DNA from: a virus
Virus record (IMG/VR): IMGVR_UViG_3300021963_000616
Coordinates: 1-24,907 of that record
DNA length: 24,907 nucleotides
Direction: 5' to 3' (one strand)
Below the pieces are notes generated by a model. The model had not been told where the DNA came from and did no database searches. It saw nothing but the letters and a program-made list of their open reading frames with translations. Position 1 is the stretch's first letter; each line of letters opens with the position of its first letter. Made by a program: the position numbers and the translations under genes. Positions 2,758-20,570 of the stretch are shown in pieces.

Positions 2758-5700
2758 TTATTTGTTTTTTAAAATTGTTATTTCTGCTGATAGTTCTTGT
2801 ATGGCTTTTAACATTACAGGTACAATTATAGAATAATCTACGCTTTGCATTTTCTCGCCATCTTTTACACCGCCTACTGCATAAGGAATAACCTCTTGTA
2901 ATTCGTGTGCCATAACTCCATAAACTCTATTGCCAGTTTCTTTATATTTGTAATCGTAAACTTTTATTTTATTTAAAATATCATTACCATTAAATTCTTT
3001 TAAATCAGTTTTTAATCTATAATCAGAAGTTACATTATATCTAACTAATCCTGCACTTCTATTATAATCAATACTTCCTCTTGAAGTTATAGATGTTTCC
3101 GTAGTAAACTCAATAAATAGATTATTACCACTTGATACTGCACTCCACAATTCTAATCCTTGTTGAGCAGAATTTGAATTTTTAAAAGTAGGTCCTGCAT
3201 CAATACTATTTACATGTAATATTGTATTTGCACCAACTATTGGGGATGTAGTACCAATGCAAACTGCTCCCCCACTTGTAATTCGCATACGTTCAACCAA
3301 GTTTGTGCCGTTACTTGTCCATATTCTAAACGCACCTAATTCATTCCCTGATGTTGCATTTTCCTTAAATCCATCAATGGCTGCATATACTCCTTGTGCA
3401 GTTGTCCCCGTTTTATAACCATTAAAAGAAATACCTCCACCAACTCCAGCAGCCATGCTTGTATTATCTTGAATAAGTAGATGCCATCCTCCAGTATTTG
3501 CTTTAGCATTAACACTCGAAAACGTGGCTGCACCAGTGGAGGCAATAGCTAAAGCACTAGCACTATTTACTACAAATGACATAATATAAGGCAATGTAGG
3601 ATGAGTTGCACCATATAAACCTATGTATGTAGTTGTATTTGAATTTGTTAAAAGTAGTCTACCTACTGAATCGCCTCCATTAATTCTCGCATCGCTACCA
3701 CTTAAAATTAAATTACCGCCAGCCGTTACACTACTCGAAAACGTGGCTGCACCATTAGAATCAATTGTTGCACGAATGAATGAATTTGTTCCAAATTGTA
3801 ATGATGTTGCACCTAAAGTTCCTATTTGTGTAGCATATGCACTTCCATTGTTAAAAACATTTGTTCCAGTACTACTTCCTAAAACCCAAATACCATTACC
3901 ACCCGTATTAGCTAATTGAATAGCTTGATAACCAGTCGTTGCAGATATAGAAGTAAATACATTTGAATTATTTCCAACCGTACTAGTAATAACTCCGCTA
4001 AACGAAGCAGTTGTTCCAAATAATGCTCCAGTTAATGTACCTCCAGTTAATGGTAAATATCCACTTAAAGCAGAACCATAATTAGGAATATTTAAAACTC
4101 CAGTAGTTGAATTATAAGTTGAATTTCCCGAAGTTCCCGTTGTTGTTAAACTTACCGATGCTCTTGCTAAAGCATCTGTGTATTGAGTTAATGAAGTACT
4201 AATAACTCCTGTAGTTGAATTATAAGAAATCCCTGAAGTACCTGATAAAAAAGATGCAGTAATACCACCTAATCCACTTAACGTATAAGTTGGAATATTT
4301 AATACGTTAGAAACTAATGTAGCAGAACCACTTGATCCTGTAGTTGTTAAACTTGTAATTCTATTTGTGTATGCAGTATCCCAATTTGTAGCAGATGCGG
4401 TAGTTGGTATTGCATATCCTGCAGTTAAACTAAATACACCTGTTGTATTGGTATATGTTAATCCTGTGGCAGAAGAAGATAATTCAGTTAAAGCAATATA
4501 ATTATTTGGGTTTGTCGCATTATAAGGTGTAAAACCTAAAGCAGTTGCAATGGATTTCTTTTCCCATAAATTATTAGATGTATTAAATGCTATAATATCA
4601 TTATTAGCAGGAGATTGAGCCGATACATTATGGATTTCATCTAATTCATATCCATTTTGTATCTTAACTTCAATCTGTCCTAATGTCGGATGCGCCCTTG
4701 TAATTACACCAATATAAACTAAATGATTAGGAGCATATTGCTTTGTAGCAGTATAAGTACCAGCAGTAGTAGGAGATAAATAAAGTTGTTGTCCTTCTGT
4801 AAATGCGGATGTATCTATACCTGTTAAATCTCCAGTTAAAACAACATAGCCTTCAGCATTGTTAGCAATATTTGCTTGACATAATCCAAATGTTTGAGCA
4901 GATGTAGAATCACCAGTTGCTAATGCTTTTTCCACAATTGGATTATTGCCTGTAGCACCAGTAATGTAAACAACTGTTCCCTTTGTTAAGGTTGCACCTG
5001 TTTGATTTCTTACAAGCCTAACTAATGTGCCTGCTTGTCCAGCGACAGGAAAAGCAATTAAACTACCATCACCTCCAACATATTGAGTTGTATCACCTGT
5101 TGGATATGGATAATAAGTTGCAGTATCGTAAGAAATTGTACCTGCAGTAGATTTAACAAAACCTGTACCTGATAAATTATTTTGCTTTGTATTTAAAGCA
5201 TTCTGTAAATCAGTTTGGTTAGATAAAGTCCCTGTAATGCCACCCCAAATCGTTCCAACCGTAGGAGAAACCTCGATGTAAGTAGCACCAGACCAACGAT
5301 AAATCTTATTAGTATCTAATGCAACGTATATCTTGCCTGTTGTACCACTTGCAGGAAATGCTGCTAAATCAGCAAACTCTAAAACATCATCTACATAAGA
5401 TGGTAATTGAGTTGATGGAACTAAGCCTCCGCCATCAAGACTTGCATATCCATTGGCAACTCCTTTATTTGCTGCGTTCTCTGGTGTGTAACCTAAAGCA
5501 GTCGTTACATTGCCACTTGTTAATGATAATGTACCTCCTAATGTAAGATTTCCACTTGTTGTAACCGTTCCACTTAAACTTAATCCACTAACCGTTCCTG
5601 TGCCACCAACAGATGTTACCGTTCCTACATTAGTAGTATAACCGCTTGGATTAGAGGCATCATATTTTAAGTTTAAAGCAGTTTGTGTCGCGGTACTAAT

Positions 5701-6402
5701 TGGCTTTAATAAATCAGTAGTATTATCAACATTACCCAAACCAACCATTGATTTAGTAATACCTGAAACCGTACCTGTAAATGTAGGAGATGCCAAAGGT
5801 GCTTTAGTATCTAATGCAGTTTGTGTTGCTGAACTTATTGGCTTATTAACATCGCTTGTATTATCGACATTACCTAAACCAACCATTGCCTTTGTTATGC
5901 CACCAACTGTACCCGTAAACGTAGGATTATTTATATCAGCCTTTAAATTTAAGGCAGTTTGTGTTGCAGTAGAAATAGGTTTATTGACATCACTTGTATT
6001 ATCTACATTTGATAAGCCAACCATTGATTTAGTTATTCCACTAACTGTTCCTGTAAAAGTGGGTGATGCTAATGGTGCTTTGGCATTTAACGCAGTTTGT
6101 AAATCAGTTTGTCCAGATAATGTACCTGTTATTTGCCCCCAAGCAACTACTGCACTTGAATTTATTTGAGTATATGCTGAACCACTCCAACGATACATTA
6201 AACTTGTATCATTGATAACATATAAAGTTGTTAAATCACCTGTAATTGGTAATGCACTAAATGTACTTGCCAAATAATAATTAGATCCAATAATATTCCC
6301 AGATGTTTGAGATACATTGATTGAAACTAAATTTGGAGTTACATTCAGTTGTACGTTATCGGAATTATCGGTAACAATTATATCAATAATATCGTTTGCC
6401 AT
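2758..6402 (-). CDS. Tail fibre with C-terminal S74 intramolecular chaperone
   Basis: 1214-aa host-recognition fibre. Residues 1-108 probably form the virion-attachment part. Residues 109-246 are three near-identical 46-residue repeats (SPTFTGTVSGITKSMVGL core). A later segment repeats the YRWSG...W.GITGTLS.QTDLQ.ALN.K unit of the N-terminal part, showing internal duplication. The long middle is Ser/Thr/Gly-rich beta structure typical of trimeric fibres. The last 89 residues match the peptidase S74 domain of endosialidases and phage fibres: SDYRLK places the Ser1126-Lys1131 dyad at the expected +5 spacing, so self-cleavage before Ser1126 after trimer folding is likely. Its ATG overlaps the stop of the BppU-like gene (TAATG), linking it to baseplate or neck assembly. 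The receptor is unknown; the S74 call is confident. Confidence 0.9.
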   Translation of the reverse strand: MANDIIDIIVTDNSDNVQLNVTPNLVSINVSQTSGNIIGSNYYLASTFSALPITGDLTTLYVINDTSLMYRWSGSAYTQINSSAVVAWGQITGTLSGQTDLQTALNAKAPLASPTFTGTVSGITKSMVGLSNVDNTSDVNKPISTATQTALNLKADINNPTFTGTVGGITKAMVGLGNVDNTSDVNKPISSATQTALDTKAPLASPTFTGTVSGITKSMVGLGNVDNTTDLLKPISTATQTALNLKYDASNPSGYTTNVGTVTSVGGTGTVSGLSLSGTVTTSGNLTLGGTLSLTSGNVTTALGYTPENAANKGVANGYASLDGGGLVPSTQLPSYVDDVLEFADLAAFPASGTTGKIYVALDTNKIYRWSGATYIEVSPTVGTIWGGITGTLSNQTDLQNALNTKQNNLSGTGFVKSTAGTISYDTATYYPYPTGDTTQYVGGDGSLIAFPVAGQAGTLVRLVRNQTGATLTKGTVVYITGATGNNPIVEKALATGDSTSAQTFGLCQANIANNAEGYVVLTGDLTGIDTSAFTEGQQLYLSPTTAGTYTATKQYAPNHLVYIGVITRAHPTLGQIEVKIQNGYELDEIHNVSAQSPANNDIIAFNTSNNLWEKKSIATALGFTPYNATNPNNYIALTELSSSATGLTYTNTTGVFSLTAGYAIPTTASATNWDTAYTNRITSLTTTGSSGSATLVSNVLNIPTYTLSGLGGITASFLSGTSGISYNSTTGVISTSLTQYTDALARASVSLTTTGTSGNSTYNSTTGVLNIPNYGSALSGYLPLTGGTLTGALFGTTASFSGVITSTVGNNSNVFTSISATTGYQAIQLANTGGNGIWVLGSSTGTNVFNNGSAYATQIGTLGATSLQFGTNSFIRATIDSNGAATFSSSVTAGGNLILSGSDARINGGDSVGRLLLTNSNTTTYIGLYGATHPTLPYIMSFVVNSASALAIASTGAATFSSVNAKANTGGWHLLIQDNTSMAAGVGGGISFNGYKTGTTAQGVYAAIDGFKENATSGNELGAFRIWTSNGTNLVERMRITSGGAVCIGTTSPIVGANTILHVNSIDAGPTFKNSNSAQQGLELWSAVSSGNNLFIEFTTETSITSRGSIDYNRSAGLVRYNVTSDYRLKTDLKEFNGNDILNKIKVYDYKYKETGNRVYGVMAHELQEVIPYAVGGVKDGEKMQSVDYSIIVPVMLKAIQELSAEITILKNK
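5665..6078 (-). repeat. Three tandem 138-bp repeats in the fibre gene
   Basis: Three consecutive in-frame units of 46 codons encode residues 109-154, 155-200 and 201-246 of the fibre. Each has the pattern P-x-FTGTV-x-GITK-x-MVGL-x-NVDNT-x-D followed by KPIS and ATQTAL. The protein copies are nearly identical, while the DNA copies differ at many third positions, so the duplication is not brand new. Such units probably form regular shaft turns, and repeat number could vary between relatives and change fibre length. Confidence 0.9.
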
Positions 6403-10067: not shown

Positions 10068-11021
10068 TTAGTTGGCAGCATTTGTGATACCGTAAGTAAC
10101 AATATCAGAAGCAAATCCGTATTGTACTCCAGCAGTCATTCTCATAACAACGCGAACGTTTTGAGAACCATCAATGTCAGCCATGTCAATAACCTTAACT
10201 TCAGTCAAATCAGAGATAAGACCAGTACCGAAATACAAGTTAGATTTTTGAGTAGCAATTGCTTTTGTAGAAGCAAGACCATCTGCAACGAATAATTTGA
10301 TACCATCAAAAGAAAGAGATCCATTGTTGTACCATTGTGTTCCCATTGCGTTAGTACCGTTAGCACCTAAACCAGATGCACCGAAACCACCCAAAGCACG
10401 AATGTAAGCACGAGCCATTGCTTGTGATACATAGATGTAAAGGTCATCTTTAGTGTATAAAGAAGAAGGGATAGCATCTGCAATCTTTCCTAATTCAGCA
10501 ACGATAGTTGAAGAAGAAACGGCAGCACCTGCAACTTCTTGTCCAGAAGGCAAAGCAGCATCTAAAGCCAATAATGTAGATAAACCATCAAACTCACCTG
10601 CGTTAGCAGTAACACCTTCCCAGATATTAGTTTCGTTCTTAGCAGCAACTTTAGCAGCAACGTGTGCAACTAAGAAGTCAGCGAAAGACTTAGGCAATGT
10701 TTTGAAAGCAGAATATCCTTGCTCAACAGATAACCAATCAGAAGCAAAGTCTTTCTTACATAATTGTAAGTTAACTTGGAATTCTTCTGGTTGTAAAATC
10801 TTTTCAGTCAAAGTAATTGTCGATGTAGCATCGAAATCACAAGTTGCATTTTTCAAGATGCCATCTGTGGCAACTCTTTTGATAACTTGCTTAAAACGTA
10901 CATTTGGTTTTACTTCAATACCACCACGATCAATGGTAGGTGAAGAAAGCAAAGAAGCAGCAATGATTTTATTTGCATACTCCCCAGCATAGGTTGTGGT
11001 AATACTTGTTGTAGTCGGCAT
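10068..11021 (-). CDS. Major capsid protein
   Basis: 317-aa protein consistent with an HK97-fold major capsid protein of the Bacteroidota phage type. Features are the N-terminal arm (MPTTTSITTTYAGEYANKII), a beta region with ILQPEEFQVNLQLCKKDF, an Ala-rich long helix (SFADFLVAHVAAKVAAKNE), a DDLYIYVSQAMARAYIRAL segment, and a closing strand near VRVVMRMTAGVQYGF. The base composition is visibly less AT-rich than in neighbouring genes (many GCA, ACC and GAA codons), as expected of a highly expressed gene. It lies just downstream of a scaffold-like gene and the XkdF-like protease gene, the usual capsid-assembly order, and is followed by a hairpin terminator. The leader AAATTTAAATAAAATG is A-rich. 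Confidence is high from position and composition; no search was run. Confidence 0.85.
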   Translation of the reverse strand: MPTTTSITTTYAGEYANKIIAASLLSSPTIDRGGIEVKPNVRFKQVIKRVATDGILKNATCDFDATSTITLTEKILQPEEFQVNLQLCKKDFASDWLSVEQGYSAFKTLPKSFADFLVAHVAAKVAAKNETNIWEGVTANAGEFDGLSTLLALDAALPSGQEVAGAAVSSSTIVAELGKIADAIPSSLYTKDDLYIYVSQAMARAYIRALGGFGASGLGANGTNAMGTQWYNNGSLSFDGIKLFVADGLASTKAIATQKSNLYFGTGLISDLTEVKVIDMADIDGSQNVRVVMRMTAGVQYGFASDIVTYGITNAAN

Positions 11022-12256: not shown

Positions 12257-12827
12257 TTTCTAATATATTTAAAATTTGATTTACTAATTCTTCATCATTA
12301 ATCTCTGGCAATAATTCCAAAGATAATTTATCAGCAAAGTACCCTTCAATAGAAAATCCTTTAATCTCTCCACTCTTTGCCTTTGACCAAATTTCTTCGT
12401 TATCAGCTTTCATTGATACCATCCAAGTCCCTTTAGGTAAACTAAATCCATAAGATTTAGATTTATCCATTTCTGGATCTGTAATTATCCATGATTCAAC
12501 CAATGACATTCCATCTACTTTAGTTTGATGTTGTAATGTAGCATTAGATTGATTACCATTCTTTAAATACATTTGGCTTGCTTGCTCTACTGTACTTTCA
12601 GAAAAGAAAACTTGATATTTTGTATCTCCATCTTTACGAAAAATCATTTTATTAGGAATCAATGCTGGTCCCATTAATATTTTCTTTTCAGTATCTACTT
12701 CAGCTAAATTCATTTCGTACTCTTTAGCTAATGTAATGAAATTGCTTTCAATAGCAGGTCTGTCAACCAAACTTATTGCTTCAATCCCATCTTCATCATT
12801 TGAAATTATTAATTCTATGATCTTCAT
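12249..12827 (-). CDS. XkdF-like prohead serine protease
   Basis: 192-aa protein resembling the XkdF family of PBSX-type phages (peptidase S78-like), thought to process scaffold and capsid proteins during head maturation. Typical pieces are SLVDRPAIESNF at the N-terminus (about 19-30), GPALIPNKMIFRKD (53-66), the segment ATLQHQ with His100 as the likely catalytic histidine, VESWIITDP (110-118), and GFSIEGYF with Ser159 as the likely nucleophile. The size is normal for a stand-alone protease. It opens the capsid cluster: small Cys-rich protein, helical protein, scaffold-like protein and capsid follow. The ATG at 12827 comes 3 nt after a GTTTATAC element, so the head genes probably have their own promoter. 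The catalytic residues are inferred from the family pattern. Confidence 0.85.
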   Translation of the reverse strand: MKIIELIISNDEDGIEAISLVDRPAIESNFITLAKEYEMNLAEVDTEKKILMGPALIPNKMIFRKDGDTKYQVFFSESTVEQASQMYLKNGNQSNATLQHQTKVDGMSLVESWIITDPEMDKSKSYGFSLPKGTWMVSMKADNEEIWSKAKSGEIKGFSIEGYFADKLSLELLPEINDEELVNQILNILENE

Positions 12828-12830
12828 GGT

Positions 12831-12860
12831 GTATAAACGTTTTTTTAAAATTTTGTTACA
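12831..12860 (-). promoter_or_regulatory. Candidate ECF-type promoter element (copy at 12827 start)
   Basis: On the minus strand TGTAAC (12860-12855) is followed after exactly 15 nt of pure A/T by CGTTTATAC (12839-12831), ending 3 nt before the ATG of the XkdF-like gene. The arrangement resembles the TGAAAC / CGTATA promoters of ECF sigma factors. It lies between the tape-measure stop and the head-assembly genes, a sensible place for a late promoter. Confidence 0.5.
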
Positions 12861-12866
12861 TTTTCA

Positions 12867-14408
12867 TTAACCTAAACTTGCACTCATCACCTTATTTCTG
12901 TCCAGTGATTGTTGTGAACTTACTTCAGATGCAACAACATAAGCCTTTACTGGTTGTTGACCTTGACCTACTACCTGTGCAATTTGATTGACACCACTTG
13001 TGCCAACTACATTAAATTGTGGGGCAGTTGAATAACTTGGTGTCATCTGTGGATTTCCAAAAGACATATTAGATCCAGTTGCATTACCAGATTTAATATC
13101 TTGAATACCTTTTGCTCCTGCACTTACTGCAGCCAATCCTGCTGCTACTGATCCTGCTAATCCAATCCATGCCAATGGACTTGTAACACCTCCATCTTTA
13201 ACAAAGTTTTTATTGGCATTAATTGCAATGCTTGCAATAGCAGCACCTTGTTCTAATATAATTGAAGCAATGGCTAATTCTTTATTCTGCCCAGAAATTT
13301 GTCTTAACCCTTGAGCAAACTGCATAACACTTGCAATGTATTGTCCTTGTATTCCAATTTTTGCCTCTGCTTCAATTTTAGCAATATTTTTTCTTTTCTC
13401 TGCTTCTTCATTTTCTACTGCAGTAATATTACCCATGTAGGTAGCCATTGAATTTAATTCAACGCTATTCTCAAATTCAATTTGTTTTTGTTTTTCTGCT
13501 GCTCTTAATTTTCTTTCTTCTTCTGCTTCAATTTCTATGGCAGCAATATTTTCTTCATAGACTCGAATAGAATTTGTCTGCGCATCTAATCTTGCTAAAT
13601 CTGCTAATCTATCTTCTTCTTTCTTTTGCCTTAATTCCTCTCTCTTAGTTTTTTCTTCATTTAATAGTGCATTACGATTTACTAATTGCTCACTTTCTAA
13701 TCCTGTGAGTTGTGCTGCAATACCTGCTTCATTATTTCTTGCATTAATTAATGCTATCTCATTTTCAATATTAGGCATTGTATCATACCTTACCTTAGCA
13801 GCATCGGTTTGATATTTTGCTTGCTTCTGCATTTCAGCATTTTGCAGTTTTAATATTTGACCTAATCTCTCATTTGCTTTAATTCTTTCTGGAATAGATA
13901 AAGCATCATTATCACGAATCTGTCTTTGTAATTCAGCTAAACGATCAAATTTTTCAATTAATCCTTGTTGAACTGCTGCTGCTCTTTTAGCATTATTTTC
14001 AAGTTTAGTAGTATCTGTTGCCTTACTAAAACTTTTGCCTAAGTTGTCAAAAAAATTCTTAAATGATAAATCTCCAGAAATAAGTTTTACTATATCTGAA
14101 AATATCATTTTTGTGGCAGTCATTGAAGTATTGAATAAATCAATTACTTTTTGATTTTGCCCTATTGTATCTTTAAATAATTGGAATGCCTCAAGCAATA
14201 CACCAATACCTGCTGCCTTAATGGCTAACCCTAAGCCACTAAATGCTTTAGCCATTTTGCCAATACCACTCTCGGCTTTCTTGGTAGAATCAGCAATATC
14301 TTCTACCTTTTTATTGGTGTCTTCTAATTTATGGGTAACATCATCTACTTTCTTAGCAACATCATCTAAATTATGCTTAACTTTTAAGGTGATTATTTTC
14401 TCCTCCAT
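12867..14408 (-). CDS. Tail tape-measure protein
   Basis: 513-aa protein with a tape-measure layout: an N-terminal coiled coil (KKVDDVTHKLEDTNKKVEDI), a hydrophobic segment at about 50-75 (GLGLAIKAAGIGVLLEAF), a long helical, Glu/Lys/Arg-rich body (about 130-350), a second Ala/Gly-rich hydrophobic segment at about 410-440 (WIGLAGSVAAGLAAVSAG), and a C-terminal part with VKAYVVASEVSSQQSLDR, which I recognise from Bacteroidota phage tape-measure-like proteins. It would set tail length and pass through the tail tube on infection. At the rule of thumb of about 0.15 nm per residue the tail would be roughly 75 nm (inference). The gene overlaps a 48-aa small gene by 16 nt and lies downstream of two glycosyltransferase genes, an uncommon place. 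Confidence 0.75.
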   Translation of the reverse strand: MEEKIITLKVKHNLDDVAKKVDDVTHKLEDTNKKVEDIADSTKKAESGIGKMAKAFSGLGLAIKAAGIGVLLEAFQLFKDTIGQNQKVIDLFNTSMTATKMIFSDIVKLISGDLSFKNFFDNLGKSFSKATDTTKLENNAKRAAAVQQGLIEKFDRLAELQRQIRDNDALSIPERIKANERLGQILKLQNAEMQKQAKYQTDAAKVRYDTMPNIENEIALINARNNEAGIAAQLTGLESEQLVNRNALLNEEKTKREELRQKKEEDRLADLARLDAQTNSIRVYEENIAAIEIEAEEERKLRAAEKQKQIEFENSVELNSMATYMGNITAVENEEAEKRKNIAKIEAEAKIGIQGQYIASVMQFAQGLRQISGQNKELAIASIILEQGAAIASIAINANKNFVKDGGVTSPLAWIGLAGSVAAGLAAVSAGAKGIQDIKSGNATGSNMSFGNPQMTPSYSTAPQFNVVGTSGVNQIAQVVGQGQQPVKAYVVASEVSSQQSLDRNKVMSASLG

Positions 14409-14568: not shown

Positions 14569-15192
14569 TTAATTTCTATTAATAAAATAGAATGGATTTA
14601 AATGTGAATAAAATGAATCATCTATTAAATAATTAATTGGCGTTAAATAATTGAACCAATCATGCGCCCACATATTTTCATCTAAATCTTTAATCTGGTT
14701 ATAAAATTCTAATAACATTGATGAATGAATGACATAAAAATTATCATCACATAAATTTGAAACATCGCCACATCTTGACCTTGAAGAAATATTAAAACTA
14801 TTAGGATCAAATTTGAAATCTGTAATATGTTGTTTAAATATTAAATCAAATCTTGTTAATAAAATATAATCATAATCTTTATATTCAGAATCTAAAATCA
14901 ATTTTAATAAATTTTTAAATGTATTATTTCTTGATCTCCAATTGGCATTTAAATCATTTGGTATATTAACAAGGTCAGTAGTTACAATTCTTTGAATATT
15001 ATAATCATTAATCAAATTTTCTAATTTTGGTGAATTATAAGTTGATGCAAAAAATGTACAATCATGATGATTAAATATAAATTCTTTATTATTATCAATA
15101 GATTTTTTATAATCAACGGTTGGTGTCCATCCCATCCAATGATTTAAATTTTCTTTATAATGAATACCAAATAATCCAACTAATATTTTCAT
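14569..15192 (-). CDS. Putative glycosyltransferase, second of a pair
   Basis: 207-aa protein. The N-terminus MKILVGLFGIHYKENLNHW looks like the first strand of a nucleotide-sugar-binding fold, and residues about 112-124 (YDYILLTRFDLIF) match the short acidic strand-end motif (here R-F-D-L) that binds a sugar nucleotide and metal in several GT-A families. Further on are a CGDVSNLCDDNFYVIHSS segment and an aromatic C-terminal end. The length is short for a complete GT-A enzyme. It overlaps the upstream glycosyltransferase gene by 4 nt (ATGA), so the two are made together. The gene is strikingly AT-rich, even against its neighbours, hinting at transfer. The substrate is unknown; the 1129-aa Thr-rich tail protein encoded upstream is an attractive acceptor (inference). 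Confidence 0.55.
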   Translation of the reverse strand: MKILVGLFGIHYKENLNHWMGWTPTVDYKKSIDNNKEFIFNHHDCTFFASTYNSPKLENLINDYNIQRIVTTDLVNIPNDLNANWRSRNNTFKNLLKLILDSEYKDYDYILLTRFDLIFKQHITDFKFDPNSFNISSRSRCGDVSNLCDDNFYVIHSSMLLEFYNQIKDLDENMWAHDWFNYLTPINYLIDDSFYSHLNPFYFINRN

Positions 15193-16112
15193 AATAATGG
15201 TGAATTTAATCCTGCTTTTTGAACTTCGTTATAATAATAATAACTGGCTCTATTTTTATCTAACTCTAAAGAAGTATTATAAGGTAATTTATTAGCATAT
15301 TCTCCTTTAAAAAACATTCCACTTTTTGAATCTCCTACACCTGCATTATGTAGAATTTTATATTTAACTGAATCTGATATATCGCTTGTAGACCATCCAA
15401 AATCTAATTCTTTAACTACCTTCGTTTGATGTCCAAAGAACCAAGCATTGTAAAGCAATGACCACATACCAGCAGTCCATTTCTGTATTGGATAGTCATG
15501 TTCATGCTTAGGTTCATAATAAGGTTCTTTGTTTATAAAATATTGGTATAAACTAATTGAATCTTTCTCTACCTTATCCCAAAAATTAAAGTCTGTTCCT
15601 TTTACAATGTATTGTGCGCCTCCACTATGATCATTCATTAGTTTAGGAATTAGGCAATCAATGCCTACAATCCTGCACATATCAATTAACAAATCTTCAC
15701 CTTTTTGCATAATATAGTCATAGTTAATATAACTATTTGTATCACTTAAATACCAAACCCTATCTTTTTCAAACTTTGAATAATCTGGTGTCCCTGTAAA
15801 TACAATATCTGAATCATGCAAAAACAAAACTTCATCTTTTAAATGTGGATTAGATGCAAGATGTTGTTTCATAAGATTAAAGTAAATGGCAGGAATATAA
15901 ATGCCATTTTCTCTTGTGTCTTTATAAAAAAAGAATCTAATGGTTGAGTAATGCTCTTGCAGTATTCTCCATTTCGTTAAATCTTGATCAGTAAATCCTA
16001 ATACTATATCTATTTGATTAGGATTGATTCCATGCGACATGAAATTATTTATGACAGTTTCTATTTGCCATAAATAATAATCATTCGCAGGTTGACAACA
16101 GATATATCTCAT
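15189..16112 (-). CDS. Putative GT-A glycosyltransferase, first of a pair
   Basis: 307-aa protein with a GT-A-like arrangement. MRYICCQPANDYYLWQIE starts the fold; residues about 93-106 contain VLFLHDSDIVFTG with a D-S-D (DXD) motif that in GT-A enzymes binds metal and sugar nucleotide; a GGAQYIVKG segment and a C-terminal KILHNAGVGD (about 265-274), with a His typical of a late metal ligand, follow. No membrane segment or signal peptide is present, so it acts in the cytoplasm of the infected cell. The gene begins 1 nt after the stop of the Thr-rich tail protein gene and overlaps the next glycosyltransferase gene, placing sugar transfer within the tail-gene block. The acceptor could be a virion protein, DNA or host envelope glycan; sequence alone does not decide. 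Confidence 0.7.
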   Translation of the reverse strand: MRYICCQPANDYYLWQIETVINNFMSHGINPNQIDIVLGFTDQDLTKWRILQEHYSTIRFFFYKDTRENGIYIPAIYFNLMKQHLASNPHLKDEVLFLHDSDIVFTGTPDYSKFEKDRVWYLSDTNSYINYDYIMQKGEDLLIDMCRIVGIDCLIPKLMNDHSGGAQYIVKGTDFNFWDKVEKDSISLYQYFINKEPYYEPKHEHDYPIQKWTAGMWSLLYNAWFFGHQTKVVKELDFGWSTSDISDSVKYKILHNAGVGDSKSGMFFKGEYANKLPYNTSLELDKNRASYYYYNEVQKAGLNSPLL

Positions 16113-16113
16113 A

Positions 16114-19100
16114 TTAACTACATGAACCTTGTGGTAAACTTACACTAATAGAACCTCCCGCAGAAACAGTTCCTGACCTTGCGCATATAGTTGTACTAGC
16201 ATTTGGTTGTAATTCTACATTTGTATTTTGTGTCCCATTACAAGATGTATAATCATAGAAACCAGAATTTTCCGAATCAAAATTAATTAAAGTATAATTT
16301 TGACAATTAGGACCAGCAGTTGTTGTGGTTGTCGTAGTTGTTGGTGCTGCAGTAGTCGTAGTGGTTGTGGTTGTATATCCACAAGCAGGATCGTTATAAG
16401 CAATAACCGAATTATAAGTTCCACAAGATCCATCTGCAAAAATACCAATCTTATTAAAGTCTGGTGCGCCTCCACAGAATTCTCCAATATAAGTACCATA
16501 AGGTTGACAAGTTGTTGTCGTAGTTGTGGTAGTTGTAGTTGTAGTTGGCAATGTGGTAGTTGTAGTCGTAGTTGGTAATGTTGTAGTTGTAGTCGTAGTG
16601 TAACCACAAGCAGGATCATTAAATGCAATTACAGATGTATATTCTCCACAAGATCCATCTGCAAATACACCTATCTTGTTGTAATCTGGCGCACCTCCGC
16701 AGAATTCACGAATGTAAGTACCGTAAGGCAAACAAGTAGTAGTAGTAGTTGTAGTTGTAGTACAAGAAGTCGCTATAATACTATTAATCTGATTTGAAAA
16801 ATTACTATGTGTTGCTCTTTGTACATATCTAATAATGCCATCGCCATTTACAAAATAGTAACCTGTTGTGTAATTAGTTGTTGCAAAGAATGGAATTGGA
16901 TTAAAAATTGAACAATCTCCAGTATTAACATCATAACGCAAGAAAGTATATCTTGGAGGTAATGTAGTTGTAGTTGTAGAAGTAGTTGTTGTATATCCAC
17001 AGGCAGGATCGTTGTAAGCAATTACAGAAGCATATTCACCACATGAACCATTTGCAAACACTCCAATTTTATTGAAATCTGGTGCGCCTCCACAATACTC
17101 ATATAAGTAAGTTCCATAAGGAGGGCAGGTAGTAGTTGTAGTTGTAGTAGTTGCACAACTTGAATCAATAATTGTATTGATTTGGTTTGAAAAATTAGTA
17201 TGAGTAGCACTTGTTAAATACCTTGTAATGCCATCTCCGTTAATAATCTTAAATCCATTTGCATAAGAAGTATATGCCCAGAATGGAATCGGATTAGATT
17301 GAGAACAATCAAAAGCACTAACATCCCAACGGAAATATGTAAATCTTGGTGCTTCAGTTGTTGTAGTTGTACTTGTAGTACTTGTAGTTGTAGTCGTAGT
17401 AGTTGATGTAGGTACAGTTGTAGTACTTGTAGTACTTGTTGTAGTCGTAGTTGGTAATGTCGTTGTAGTAGTTGTAGTTGTAGGCTCTGTAGTAGTTGTA
17501 GTTGTAGTGCCTAAAGTAATATTTCTAAAATCAGACATCAACTCAAGACTTGTTTCTCCAGTTGTTAATTCTGTTTGATAAGAATTAATAATATATCTTT
17601 TATCCCTAATAACTATCTTGTCATTTAATGAAAGTTTAGATAATAGGAATATCGGTAAAATTGCTTTAATCTTCATTAGTCTTGCCTTCTGATTAAATGT
17701 ATTTGTTAGATATGCTGAATAATAATTATTAAATAAACTATTAGGCTCAACATTATTTGTAAAACTTGATTGCTCTGCTCCCCAATTAATAGTATTAACG
17801 ACAGACGATACTAAAGTATCCTGCCCAAATAAATTATAAGTTGTAGCAGTCGATGTCGTAGATCCATCATTAAAATAAAATACTTGGCTTGAAGATAATG
17901 TCTGAATAGTCCCATAGTCATAAAGTATAACAGGCTTAGGAATATATGCAGTATAATCTGCATGAATTGAATAGCCTACTTGAAAATTAGTATTAGTAAA
18001 TTTAGTAAATGGCATATTCTCAAATGGTAACTCAATAGAGTATTCATCACCATCATTGTCAACCTCATATTTCAAATCACCATAAGGTGTATCAGATTGA
18101 GATAAAAATGCAGTTGATATTAAATTCTCGCATTCTTGATATTTAAAATTAATAGTCTTATATGGATTTACTCTTTCTAAATCAATTTCATCTGATTGGC
18201 AATATTCAGATATATCATACGTTTGTCCTGCTGAATACCATTCCTCAAGTTGCTCAATATTATAGGTAACCCCATCAAAAGAATAACAAGTAAGATTGAA
18301 CATTTTTAACAAACCACCAAAGAAATCTTCTGCTTTAATTTCTGGCATATAATCAGCCACATTTAAAGATGTCAATGTTGTTTGTGGTGTGTCTTGGGTT
18401 GCTATAACATTTGCAGTTGGAACAGATCCATTGTTAATTTCAAAATTATATTCAGATGTAAATGTTACTGAAGATAATGAAGAAATATAAAATGTATATT
18501 CTCCAGAATCAATAAATGGAACATTTAAAGTCAATGGTGAACCATCGGCAGTTGTTAGATTTGATTGCTCATTTAATTTTCTGCCATCTTTGTAAACTGA
18601 AAATTCAAATATTGTACCTGCTCCACTTGTAAAGTTTATTCTGATATATGAAAAATTAACAAAGTTAGGTGCAATAGGTTGAACAAAATTTAAACTGTTA
18701 TTTGATAAATCAAATATACTTGATGTCCCTGTTGTACTTGATGTTAATTGAAAATCTATTTGATTAGCAAATCCTTTCTGCTCAAACTTGTCTGTATTCT
18801 TTAGCCAAAGAAAAGTATTTGTAAATTTTGGATTACTAAGAAATGAACCACTAAGTGTGATACCTAGTTGTAATGCAATAGATTCTAATATTTTACTAAT
18901 CCTCATTGCTGGGAATAGATCTAAATGATAAATTGGAGTTGCAGTTTTACTTACATCCCAATTTGATTGGCTTGTTCCACTACCTCCATATTGCCACGCA
19001 TTCTTTGAAGATATTAAAGGGAATTTAATATCATTGGTAACTCCAGAAGTTATTCTATTCTTAACAACTGCTCCAGAATAAGAAAAGTTATATCCAGAAA

Positions 19101-19503
19101 AATCAAAATCTCTTAAAAATCTATTTGCAAATTTATCCTTTAATGATATTAAAGAACCAAAAAAAGTTACTGTATAATTATCAATATCACCTTTTTTATA
19201 ACTTGCCTTTTCTAATTGTATCTTTCCTTTTCTAAAAGTTAAAGTATCTAATTCTATGTAAGCATCCTTTCTTTTAGTAGCATTAAACCCACCATCTAAA
19301 CTATTTTCATACCAATGTTTGAATACTTCATTATTGTTCTTTGTCGCAGGTACTGTAAATGATTGAGTAAAATCTGTAAAGACTTTAGATATATCATTTA
19401 TATTTTGAATTGAACTATTGATTGAAATATTTTCATCCTCAAACAATTCAAGTCTTGTTGCTTGTCCATCATCCCCATAAACAAAAATGCTTACATTAAT
19501 CAT
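16114..19503 (-). CDS. Modular tail protein with mucin-like Thr linkers
   Basis: 1129-aa protein. Residues 1 to about 663 form a large beta-rich core beginning MINVSIFVYGDDGQATRL, with an early SKVFTDFTQSFTVPATKNN segment and a later TYNIEQLEEWYSAGQTYD segment; this looks like a tail-tip or baseplate protein, and its place after three tail-joining genes agrees. From residue about 666 to 1063 the chain alternates Thr-rich linkers (runs of 5-12 Thr broken by LP, EP, AP, Ser) with two kinds of module. Module A (about 44 aa, three copies) has P-Y-GTY, E-[FY]-CGGAP, SCG and NDPACGY. Module B (about 64 aa, two copies) has an aromatic start, NPIPF, NGDGI and NFSNQIN. The C-terminal 65 aa are another Cys-rich unit ending QGSCS. 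The tail probably projects from the virion; Thr runs suit O-glycosylation, and two glycosyltransferase genes follow at once. Confidence 0.75.
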   Translation of the reverse strand: MINVSIFVYGDDGQATRLELFEDENISINSSIQNINDISKVFTDFTQSFTVPATKNNNEVFKHWYENSLDGGFNATKRKDAYIELDTLTFRKGKIQLEKASYKKGDIDNYTVTFFGSLISLKDKFANRFLRDFDFSGYNFSYSGAVVKNRITSGVTNDIKFPLISSKNAWQYGGSGTSQSNWDVSKTATPIYHLDLFPAMRISKILESIALQLGITLSGSFLSNPKFTNTFLWLKNTDKFEQKGFANQIDFQLTSSTTGTSSIFDLSNNSLNFVQPIAPNFVNFSYIRINFTSGAGTIFEFSVYKDGRKLNEQSNLTTADGSPLTLNVPFIDSGEYTFYISSLSSVTFTSEYNFEINNGSVPTANVIATQDTPQTTLTSLNVADYMPEIKAEDFFGGLLKMFNLTCYSFDGVTYNIEQLEEWYSAGQTYDISEYCQSDEIDLERVNPYKTINFKYQECENLISTAFLSQSDTPYGDLKYEVDNDGDEYSIELPFENMPFTKFTNTNFQVGYSIHADYTAYIPKPVILYDYGTIQTLSSSQVFYFNDGSTTSTATTYNLFGQDTLVSSVVNTINWGAEQSSFTNNVEPNSLFNNYYSAYLTNTFNQKARLMKIKAILPIFLLSKLSLNDKIVIRDKRYIINSYQTELTTGETSLELMSDFRNITLGTTTTTTTEPTTTTTTTTLPTTTTTSTTSTTTVPTSTTTTTTTSTTSTTTTTEAPRFTYFRWDVSAFDCSQSNPIPFWAYTSYANGFKIINGDGITRYLTSATHTNFSNQINTIIDSSCATTTTTTTTCPPYGTYLYEYCGGAPDFNKIGVFANGSCGEYASVIAYNDPACGYTTTTSTTTTTLPPRYTFLRYDVNTGDCSIFNPIPFFATTNYTTGYYFVNGDGIIRYVQRATHSNFSNQINSIIATSCTTTTTTTTTCLPYGTYIREFCGGAPDYNKIGVFADGSCGEYTSVIAFNDPACGYTTTTTTTLPTTTTTTTLPTTTTTTTTTTTTCQPYGTYIGEFCGGAPDFNKIGIFADGSCGTYNSVIAYNDPACGYTTTTTTTTAAPTTTTTTTTAGPNCQNYTLINFDSENSGFYDYTSCNGTQNTNVELQPNASTTICARSGTVSAGGSISVSLPQGSCS
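16315..17508 (-). repeat. Thr-codon minisatellite linkers and duplicated modules
   Basis: Six Thr-rich linkers lie at about 17354-17508, 17125-17156, 16955-16994, 16735-16764, 16510-16601 and 16315-16377. On the plus strand they appear as GTAGTTGTAGTT-type triplet arrays. Between them, in transcription order, are module B (about 17157-17353), A (16995-17125), B (16765-16955), A (16602-16734) and A (16378-16510). Order B-A-B-A-A suggests duplication of a B-A pair and then of A. All units are in frame, so triplet slippage would change length without disrupting the protein. Confidence 0.9.
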
Positions 19504-20570
19504 ATTACATTATTTAATAAATTATAGGCATATTCAAAATCAATAGTATAATTGATATTCTTATCTTGAATAGTTGTCTTTAAATTCGTTTGATTTGTTT
19601 TCAAAGTTACAGGTTTGTTATCTAATAAGACAACTTCACTTAACATTAAATCTTGAATTAGATCTGAATAATTTTGAGGTACAAAACCTGTGTTTAAAGT
19701 AACTGTTTGCCTTGCATTAAAATTAAATGCTTTTGTTTGTCCTTTGTAGACATTATAATTATAAGCACTCGGAAGCAAATTATACATTGTACTTGTAACC
19801 GTTAATTGATTTGTCTGCGCCTTAAAGAATGTAAGGAACTGCCAACCACCAAAACGATTAATGAATGAACATTGCACTGGTGTATATTTAGGCTCGCAGA
19901 CAGGTGTTACAGTAAATATTGATGAATAAGTCAATGTTGCACCTACATAATACTTTAAGGTTGTAATTGTGCCATCATTATAGTTTGCACTTGATGTCGT
20001 TAATGGTACTTTATACATATATTTGCCTGCACTTACTCCTGTTCCAAAGACAGGGGTAGTAATTACATTGTTATTACTTTTGTCCTTATATTCAACATCT
20101 AATTTATCTCCTAAAGCATTGTTAATTAATACGTTTACAAAAGGAATGTTGCCCAATGAATACTGTATTTCTTTTGTATTATCTGCCAATAGGCAATAAT
20201 TATTTAATGGATTCGTTTGATTGTATCCTCCAATGTAATTATTATATCCATCAACACCAGCATAAGTAGTTGTATCAACTAAAGTATATACACCTGTAGA
20301 TGTTTCTTTGTATCTTTTTACGGATACGTTACACCATTGACTGTTTGTGCTATTGCTCGAAACAATATTGTCAATGTATTCTCTTATGTAAGGTGATATA
20401 TTATAAATCGTAGACCTTTGGTCATTAGATGCTACCTTCTTAGATAAGGTGTAAGTAGCAGTTGCAGGTATTGAATTAGGTGTATTCCAAAGAAATATCT
20501 CCAGTTTACTTCCAATTTGTGATGCTTCATTAATCTCTATTTGATAAGGAGATCTTGCGTATATTATCAT
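19500..20570 (-). CDS. Probable tail structural protein
   Basis: 356-aa beta-rich protein with high Asn/Thr/Tyr content and no signal peptide or membrane segment. It starts MIIYARSPYQIEINEASQIG. Residues about 60-75 (YNISPYIREYIDNIV) are helical. Residues about 225-250 contain CEPKYTPVQCSFINRFGGWQ, with two cysteines and a conserved-looking FGGWQ motif. The end returns to beta strands (NYTIDFEYAYNLLNNVI). ATGA overlaps join it both to the HK97-gp10-like gene upstream and to the 1129-aa tail protein downstream, so it is coupled to both. I have seen similar proteins in Bacteroidota phage tail clusters but no function is established to my knowledge; a distal-tail or tail-tip adaptor is possible from position. 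Confidence 0.65.
   Translation of the reverse strand: MIIYARSPYQIEINEASQIGSKLEIFLWNTPNSIPATATYTLSKKVASNDQRSTIYNISPYIREYIDNIVSSNSTNSQWCNVSVKRYKETSTGVYTLVDTTTYAGVDGYNNYIGGYNQTNPLNNYCLLADNTKEIQYSLGNIPFVNVLINNALGDKLDVEYKDKSNNNVITTPVFGTGVSAGKYMYKVPLTTSSANYNDGTITTLKYYVGATLTYSSIFTVTPVCEPKYTPVQCSFINRFGGWQFLTFFKAQTNQLTVTSTMYNLLPSAYNYNVYKGQTKAFNFNARQTVTLNTGFVPQNYSDLIQDLMLSEVVLLDNKPVTLKTNQTNLKTTIQDKNINYTIDFEYAYNLLNNVI

Follow-up and report, generated by a model that had tools for sequence, protein, structure and literature searches.

Threonine tracts on phage virion proteins and a linked glycosyltransferase-like gene family: a probable system of virion O-glycosylation

Introduction

Why should a phage gene for a threonine-rich protein be followed at once by two genes that look like glycosyltransferases? 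The question is raised by a stretch of viral DNA, IMG/VR virus record IMGVR_UViG_3300021963_000616, positions 1–24,907 (the window, 24,907 nucleotides as a whole), in which three genes lie in series on the minus strand: a threonine-rich acceptor candidate of 1129 amino acids (aa; 16114–19503; from the open reading frame listing and profile and homologue matches), GT1, a 307-aa protein resembling GT-A glycosyltransferases (15189–16112; from profile match, predicted fold and motifs), and P0002, a 207-aa probable second GT-A glycosyltransferase (14569–15192; from a weak model and comparison of the slot that it occupies). An initial annotation of this DNA had suggested a tail protein together with a pair of putative enzymes that may decorate it with O-linked sugars. 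The layout given there was confirmed, with a gap of 1 nucleotide (nt; base 16113) between the threonine-rich open reading frame (ORF) and GT1 and an overlap of 4 nt, ATGA, between GT1 and P0002. On the evidence below we consider it very likely that GT1 serves a phage-encoded O-glycosylation of threonine tracts on virion proteins, and that the enzyme encoded in the second slot finishes the glycan.

Glycosylation of virions by phage enzymes is known in the mycobacteriophages Che8, Corndog and Myrna (Freeman et al., 2023, as cited in passages of PMC11256854, PMC12619734, PMC12691614 and PMC12363180). In the open PMC literature, taken by titles and the beginnings of abstracts (subscription papers and preprints lie outside this scope), nothing was found that ties the GT1 family or threonine tails of phage proteins to glycosylation, and nothing by the same measure on poly-threonine or threonine-rich phage proteins as a subject. 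A survey of low-complexity sequences does not, in the sections available to us, tie threonine tracts to phage glycosyltransferases (PMC6821194).

The GT1 family

GT1 belongs to phrog_4417 (E 2.2e-72, residues 1–300 on positions 1–291 of the 293 in the profile), which PHROGs lists as of unknown function. The family has 74 records in INPHARED; among the 60 rows listed, members are mostly called 'hypothetical protein', and other names are 'unknown', ORF numbers, 'prophage pi2 protein 34' and 'hypothetical protein with lpxB motif'. The phiFL2B member is named 'major tail protein', probably a misassignment, because phiFL1A and phiFL2A use that name for the gene ahead of it.

The predicted structure of GT1 (pLDDT 93.5, pTM 0.91) finds its closest folds in the PDB in glycogenin (Z 15.3, 221 residues aligned, rmsd 3.3 Å), LgtC (Z 14.6) and GlyE (Z 13.9), with UGGT and WbbM as further neighbours, all at 7–12% identity in the structural alignments listed. 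By its predicted fold the assignment of GT1 as a GT-A glycosyltransferase is well supported. Among the viral models of BFVD, the top two matches, an uncultured phage protein and LP65 Orf49 (E 2.7e-16 for the latter), both rank far above annotated glycosyltransferases. GT-A enzymes bind metal and nucleotide sugar through a DxD motif; in GT1, neither aspartate of D100-x-D102 varies among 32 close members or among 22 diverse ones. H255-x-x-G258 and K269 are invariant in the 22 diverse members; set against the HxxGxxKPW form of the C-terminal GT8 motif, the spacing to the lysine differs. Searches of PDB sequences at E 1 with two family profiles, A1 (built from 31 of 80 IMG/VR GT1 loci and the window) and A2, gave no match. 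GT1 is GT8-like in its predicted fold and is not filed as GT8, because the curated Pfam family models give no match.

Linkage of GT1 to threonine tracts

A threonine tract was defined as at least 6 threonines in 10 codons for the counts in isolates, in Firmicutes genomes, in the window and in searches that started from acceptors, and more strictly as at least 8 in 12 codons for the IMG/VR GT1 count and for loci found through runs of ACN codons. A scan of GTDB with a GT1 profile of the Bacteroidota type found no locus, and a scan with the Firmicutes profile found 35; profile A6 was built from 16 of these. At all 35 Firmicutes loci, found by GT1 alone, a sense-strand tract lies within 400 nt upstream of GT1, against 382 of 7494 background points (about 5%), and none has antisense threonine windows. 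A sample of 20 of the 74 INPHARED records, picked to span genera and gene contexts, gave a similar picture (17 of 20, against 158 of 3176 background points), and the ORF or frame directly before GT1 was threonine-rich in 19 of the 20. The typical arrangement in isolates is a capsid, tail-tube or major structural protein with a threonine tail at its end. The three isolates below the rule have threonine-rich ORFs one or two genes upstream of GT1: in MA9V-3 the tract is 672 nt away in the adjacent ORF, in PT1-4 it is 827 nt away with one ORF between, and in SAC12B a looser PTTV repeat lies upstream. A general abundance of threonine-rich ORFs near any phage gene was rejected as the cause, given the background of about 5%.

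The best 80 of 153 IMG/VR relatives of GT1 gave 77 assessable loci, the other three starting within 300 nt of a contig end; L001, L002, L089–L092 and L094 were dropped from the locus comparisons as duplicate or partial. Under the stricter rule a tract was found within 400 nt upstream in 46 of the 77, within 1300 nt in 65, and anywhere upstream in 74; at several of the farther loci, one or two ORFs separate tract and GT1. No tract of this kind lies upstream of GT1 in the stretch read at L037, L038 and L083. Five whole records were also scanned for runs of seven ACN codons in any frame, and such runs are present in the records of L039 and L044. In L044, two ORFs downstream of the GT1 member (12688–14388 and 15039–16670) carry (S/K/H)TTTT(Y/F/W) repeats, and they might be an alternative acceptor with a different low-complexity pattern.

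The linkage also holds when the search starts from acceptors. A tail-tube profile with the threonine tails cut off was used to gather the best 80 of 155 relatives, of which 73 were assessable and 7 were dropped for having less than 1300 nt behind the tail tube. Threonine tail and GT1 were both present in 17 and both absent in 56, with no discordant locus (Fisher p 5.7e-17, uncorrected for relatedness). On a tree of the 73 tail-tube bodies made by a quick method, the joint state changes nine times on the best tree, with at least four joint changes on well-supported branches. The same rule for dropping loci was applied to two capsid families. For capsid A, searched from the capsid of phage 4995_1, 85 relatives gave 71 distinct loci, of which 4 were dropped; 56 have both features, 11 have neither and none is discordant (n = 67). 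With the capsid-like protein of L352 as query (capsid B), one of 20 loci was dropped and all 19 remaining have both. Within capsid A, proteins 86–88% identical to the query and without GT1 end in '...LAPTPSK', whereas the GT1-linked ones end in '...LGTTTTTTKPTTTTTTTQA'.

The window's own group was reached through the N-terminal part of the threonine-rich protein, which gave 19 loci. Many of these were already in the set found by GT1, the new ones being mainly L393, L394, L396 and L397. Threonine tracts and GT1 occur together in 15 of the 19, with 21–123 threonine windows each; L393 and L394 break off at the acceptor or immediately past it; and L396 and L397, with a shorter acceptor of only 5 threonine windows, have no GT1. 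Neither a tract nor GT1 was found in the 9.9-kb stretch read of Nonlabens phage P12024S.

A single inherited neighbourhood was rejected as the cause of the linkage, since the acceptors are unrelated and the tail-tube tree has at least four joint changes. The proposal that a phage glycosyltransferase is paired with a threonine-rich virion acceptor of its own is supported from both directions, with 35 of 35, 17 of 20 and, for a tract anywhere upstream, 74 of 77 loci when the search starts from GT1 and no discordant locus among 73, 67 and 19 when it starts from the acceptor.

For specificity, IMG/VR was scanned for runs of ACN codons and of GCN codons, 120 stretches each among the matches listed. 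The GT1 family was present in 12 of the 120 poly-ACN stretches and in none of the 120 poly-GCN stretches, and in each of the 12 it shares the strand of the tract and lies a short way downstream; two of them (L110 and L166) were already in the IMG/VR GT1 set.

Candidate acceptor proteins

The proteins that carry the tracts are unrelated apart from the tract itself. Among them are capsids and tail tubes, small proteins read as Ig-like, one read as a possible head-decoration protein, and the tail-cluster protein of the window. The expectation of a tail protein as acceptor fits the window, where the gene lies in a tail cluster, and elsewhere the acceptor is usually the C-terminus of a capsid or tail tube. 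Existing annotation agrees with a place in the virion: in LP65 the second ORF upstream of GT1 carries the label 'structural protein 2-D,MS' and has TETQTQTQ at its end, and in phage 1706 the ORF before GT1 is annotated as the major structural protein.

At some loci the tail lies shortly beyond the stop codon of the capsid or tail-tube gene and out of frame with it (L098:3270–3340, L102:3215–3290, L006:5660–5760, L100:3205–3300 and L367:2900–3080). A tract in the −1 frame, shortly after the stop codon of the gene before it, is seen in two Enterococcus phages, 9183 and nattely, and also in Listeria fleischmannii (L367); that gene encodes the major head protein in 9183, where the tract follows a CCCAAAA heptamer. 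The tail tubes of SA2, TPWB06 and PT1-4 end in eight or nine threonines, a proline and the stop at CCC-TAA, and a long threonine tail follows in the +1 frame. The sequences suggest programmed frameshifting that would give a minority of long-tailed subunits, for which Listeria phage PSA is reportedly a precedent. A TTTTTTRHD tract in Lactococcus phage bIL285 (L107:3350–3520) lies in frame beyond the capsid stop, like the threonine tails of its relatives, which suggests either readthrough or a decaying tail. Extra ORFs, putative homing endonucleases as read by eye, lie at the tail-tube gene of Staphylococcus phages PT94 and PT1-4 (L103:2293–3432 and L099:2817–3497), and the PT94 tail tube seems to be divided, possibly by a mobile intron.

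The gene behind GT1

What had been read as a pair of enzymes consists of one conserved member, GT1, and, in the window's group, a gene behind it that is swappable. Among 27 rows whose GT1 is at least 84% identical (the window included), the slot holds P0002 in seven, a GT2-like protein in four, a 199-aa methyltransferase in three and a 177-aa methyltransferase in three; in nine, the tape-measure-like gene is the next ORF of at least 60 aa, and one row is truncated. Where the slot is empty, that next ORF belongs to the BLAST cluster of the window's 513-aa protein. The slot variants were identified through Pfam and PHROG, the GT2 match of the 214-aa protein being at E 2.7e-4, just under the Pfam cut-off. 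P0002 begins exactly at the GT1 stop, and the near-isogenic L010, with 99.4% identity across the 359 nt that follow the slot, is without P0002. The slot gene is exchanged or absent among near-identical phages with the flanks conserved (window 14569–15192; L010, L013, L014, L023 and L028). More distant rows have further methyltransferases, GT2 (L083 and L087), a GT32-like protein (L203) and Methyltransf_24 (L042) in this place.

P0002 itself gave a weak model (pLDDT 57.5). All 50 of its listed VIA matches are glycosyltransferases or close kin, the best at Z 7.7, short of the trust level, which is 8. At E 0.001 Foldseek had no match, and its weaker matches mix glycosyltransferases with ATP-synthase subunits. 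No match was found in Pfam at E 1 or in INPHARED at E 0.01, and comparison with the GT1 family profile gave no relation. Of the two putative GT-A enzymes of the initial annotation, GT1 is well supported as one by its predicted fold, and P0002 is probably another, if a weakly supported one judging by its modelled structure.

The window and its genome context

The N-terminal part of the threonine-rich protein matches phrog_38559 (residues 11–660) and P12024S_45 of Nonlabens phage P12024S, and its C-terminal part, read by eye, consists of small Cys-bearing repeats chained by threonine linkers. Its richness in threonine is clear; the label of tail protein is more tentative, and follows from position and the P12024S homologue, with no named family; Pfam gave no match to the protein at E 1. 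Of its 199 threonines, 110 fall within six tracts by the codon-window rule. Tract 1 directly follows the N-terminal region (residues 661–719; 17347–17523), and the others are at residues 781–796 (17116–17163), 835–850 (16954–17001), 910–927 (16723–16776), 965–1002 (16498–16611) and 1040–1066 (16306–16386), all on the minus strand. The threonine codons in the tracts are ACT (53), ACA (43), ACG (8) and ACC (6), and a plain DNA microsatellite was rejected as their source because all four codons occur. Across the whole window the same rule gives 124 codon windows on the minus strand, between 11015 and 17523, and zero on the plus strand. A threonine cluster outside the threonine-rich ORF (codon window at about 11015) lies near the start of a 317-aa ORF (10068–11021), which is possibly a capsid protein and is not known as an acceptor; its relative in L034 begins MATTTSITTTYAGEF.

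Upstream, the start of the threonine-rich ORF overlaps by 4 nt a minus-strand gene of the structural cluster (19500–20570, from the ORF listing), with which it would form one operon. The next gene past P0002 encodes a 513-aa coiled-coil protein (12867–14408, minus strand) that resembles a tape measure in composition and position. Terminase, portal, protease-like and tail-fibre-like proteins are encoded in the surroundings; the last, of 1214 aa (2758–6402), matches 26 PHROG families in separate stretches and is a mosaic host-recognition protein. The host is likely one of the Bacteroidota, and flavobacterial, because the only INPHARED relatives of the portal and of the threonine-rich N-terminal part are in Nonlabens phages, P12024S and P12024L (4 records).

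Interpretation and alternatives

In the mechanism that we propose, GT1 would act in the cytoplasm, taking a host nucleotide sugar and transferring it to threonine, and probably also serine, hydroxyls in the tracts of the virion protein encoded upstream. The acceptor in the window phage would be the tail-cluster protein, whose small domains are joined by threonine linkers; across the family as a whole the acceptor would mostly be the C-terminal threonine tail of a capsid or tail tube, or a small threonine-rich protein resembling a decoration protein. The slot-2 enzyme, here P0002, may then extend or cap the glycan with a second sugar, or with a methyl group in other phages of the group, giving a virion surface that would bear a coat or bristles of O-glycan. 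Such a coat might serve in masking from host or predator binding, in solubility or in adsorption. The general O-glycosylation of Bacteroidota acts on exported proteins, and would therefore miss a cytoplasmic phage protein, which gives the phage grounds to encode an enzyme itself.

Other roles for GT1 can be set against the same evidence. The threonine tail might act as a spacer or flexible linker, or might be the tag to which GT1 binds and by which it is carried as a structural protein, with no transfer of sugar; Thr/Pro linkers are common, and the motifs of GT1 are predicted ones. Yet none of D100, D102 and H255 varies among the 22 diverse members, which is what retained catalysis would predict, and the replacement of the second gene by other sugar- or methyltransferases in the window's group would be sensible only with a glycan to finish. 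This explanation, if the least improbable of the alternatives, is still very unlikely. That GT1 acts instead on the host envelope or on a host glycan, as phages do when they convert serotypes or mask receptors, with the threonine-rich protein a mere neighbour, has in its favour that phage glycosyltransferases can be of that kind, and that the fold neighbours of GT1 include LgtC and WbbM. Both of these are surface-polysaccharide enzymes. Neighbourhood alone, however, cannot explain why threonine tails occur on unrelated acceptors exactly with GT1 (no discordant locus among 73, 67 and 19; 35 of 35), and we regard such a role as very unlikely.

More remote is the idea that GT1 glycosylates the virion protein at other residues and is recruited by the threonine tail. 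O-glycosyltransferases with recruitment domains exist, but the threonine-rich stretch is the sole feature common to all acceptors and their remaining parts differ. Least credible of all is glycosylation of phage DNA at hypermodified bases. It is a known role of viral glycosyltransferases, Chryseobacterium phage MA9V-3 has a DNA polymerase III gene some 7 kb downstream, and recA is near GT1 in LpeD, SAC12B, Semele and LP65. In those four recA loci, however, GT1 still stands behind threonine-rich ORFs, the other named loci with informative annotation place it among head and tail genes, and a role in DNA modification leaves the threonine tails unexplained.

Against O-glycosylation of the tracts by GT1 several observations must be weighed. 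The locus counts are not phylogenetically independent: a sign test on independent pairs had four well-supported tail-tube pairs, all concordant (p 0.125), a number too small for p to fall to 0.05, and 53 of the 56 threonine-positive capsid A rows share one C-terminus and therefore represent few independent events. GT1 is without any Pfam-A match at E values up to 1. Among the 77 IMG/VR loci, 12 have no tract within 1300 nt, and in the whole-record scan the nearest ACN run of L083 is about 27 kb from GT1, on its strand. Whole records without ACN runs were L037 and L038, fragments and close relatives of L039, whose record has threonine-codon runs; these two fragments were the only relatives with the enzyme and without a threonine-rich protein. 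In the window, threonine sits in linkers and not in a C-terminal tail, and in many rows outside its group, Firmicutes phages included, an unrelated or ordinary virion gene stands behind GT1. The converse does not hold: a threonine ORF was present in 85 of the 120 ACN-run stretches listed, and 73 of these 85 were without a GT1-family member in the stretch read, 19 of the 73 having no downstream ORF within it. A threonine tract is thus nearly required for GT1, the reverse is not so because of these 73 ORFs, and tracts are insufficient by themselves. There was little support for other glycosyltransferase families serving the remaining ORFs, since only 1 of 71 downstream proteins matched Glycos_transf_2 (71 of the 73 were checked, two very long ones being omitted, and 25 of the 42 matching Pfam families were listed).

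With these points taken into account, O-glycosylation of the tracts by GT1 is still the reading that we favour. A broader generalization appears moderately probable: phrog_4417 may be a widespread, transferable module for O-glycosylation of virion proteins through threonine tails, its tract grafted on any upstream virion protein, sometimes via an apparent frameshift, and its finishing enzyme rapidly exchanged in some groups, so that glycan coats vary by cassette swapping.

The proposal offers a testable function for a family found in the well-studied phages 1706, bIL285, LP65, phiFL and VPE25/VFW, and the threonine tail beside a GT1 gene would be a simple sequence mark predicting a decorated virion protein. 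If true, it would add phages of Firmicutes and of Bacteroidota to the mycobacteriophages as carriers of virion glycosylation, exchange of the second gene would amount to a natural experiment on the purpose of phage glycans (adsorption, host or predator binding, or immune visibility), and GT1 with a short threonine tail could be used as an O-glycosylation tag.

Comparison with known systems

The system proposed here resembles the virion glycosylation of mycobacteriophages in that the glycosyltransferases are encoded by the phage in both. It differs in the enzymes, Che8 gp108, gp109 and gp110 having no detectable relation by sequence profile to the GT1 family (hhalign probabilities of 0.1, 1.4 and 0.1% against profile A4), and in gene order, the Che8 glycosylation genes being at the 3' end of the genome whereas GT1 adjoins its threonine-tract acceptor. 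GT1 is carried by phages of Firmicutes and of Bacteroidota, and in the window's group the gene that follows it is swappable.

Among characterized enzymes, GT1 is most like glycogenin, LgtC, GlyE and the catalytic domain of UGGT, which are GT8-type GT-A enzymes, in its predicted fold (Z about 14–15), its DxD motif and its C-terminal HxxG. It is unlike them in sequence, with 7–12% identity in the alignments listed and no Pfam or PDB sequence match at E 1. GlyE acts in the protein O-glycosylation of PsrP, a Ser/Thr-rich adhesin of Gram-positive bacteria, and the arrangement proposed for GT1 is similar, with cytoplasmic glycosyltransferases acting in series on a low-complexity Ser/Thr-rich protein encoded alongside. 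The two differ in that PsrP is a bacterial surface protein and the GT1 acceptor would be part of a virion, and the GlyE fold was matched with no sequence relation in the PDB search. Finally, GT1 is a member of phrog_4417, the family of 'prophage pi2 protein 34', which PHROGs carries without a function and for which a role as a glycosyltransferase is proposed here.

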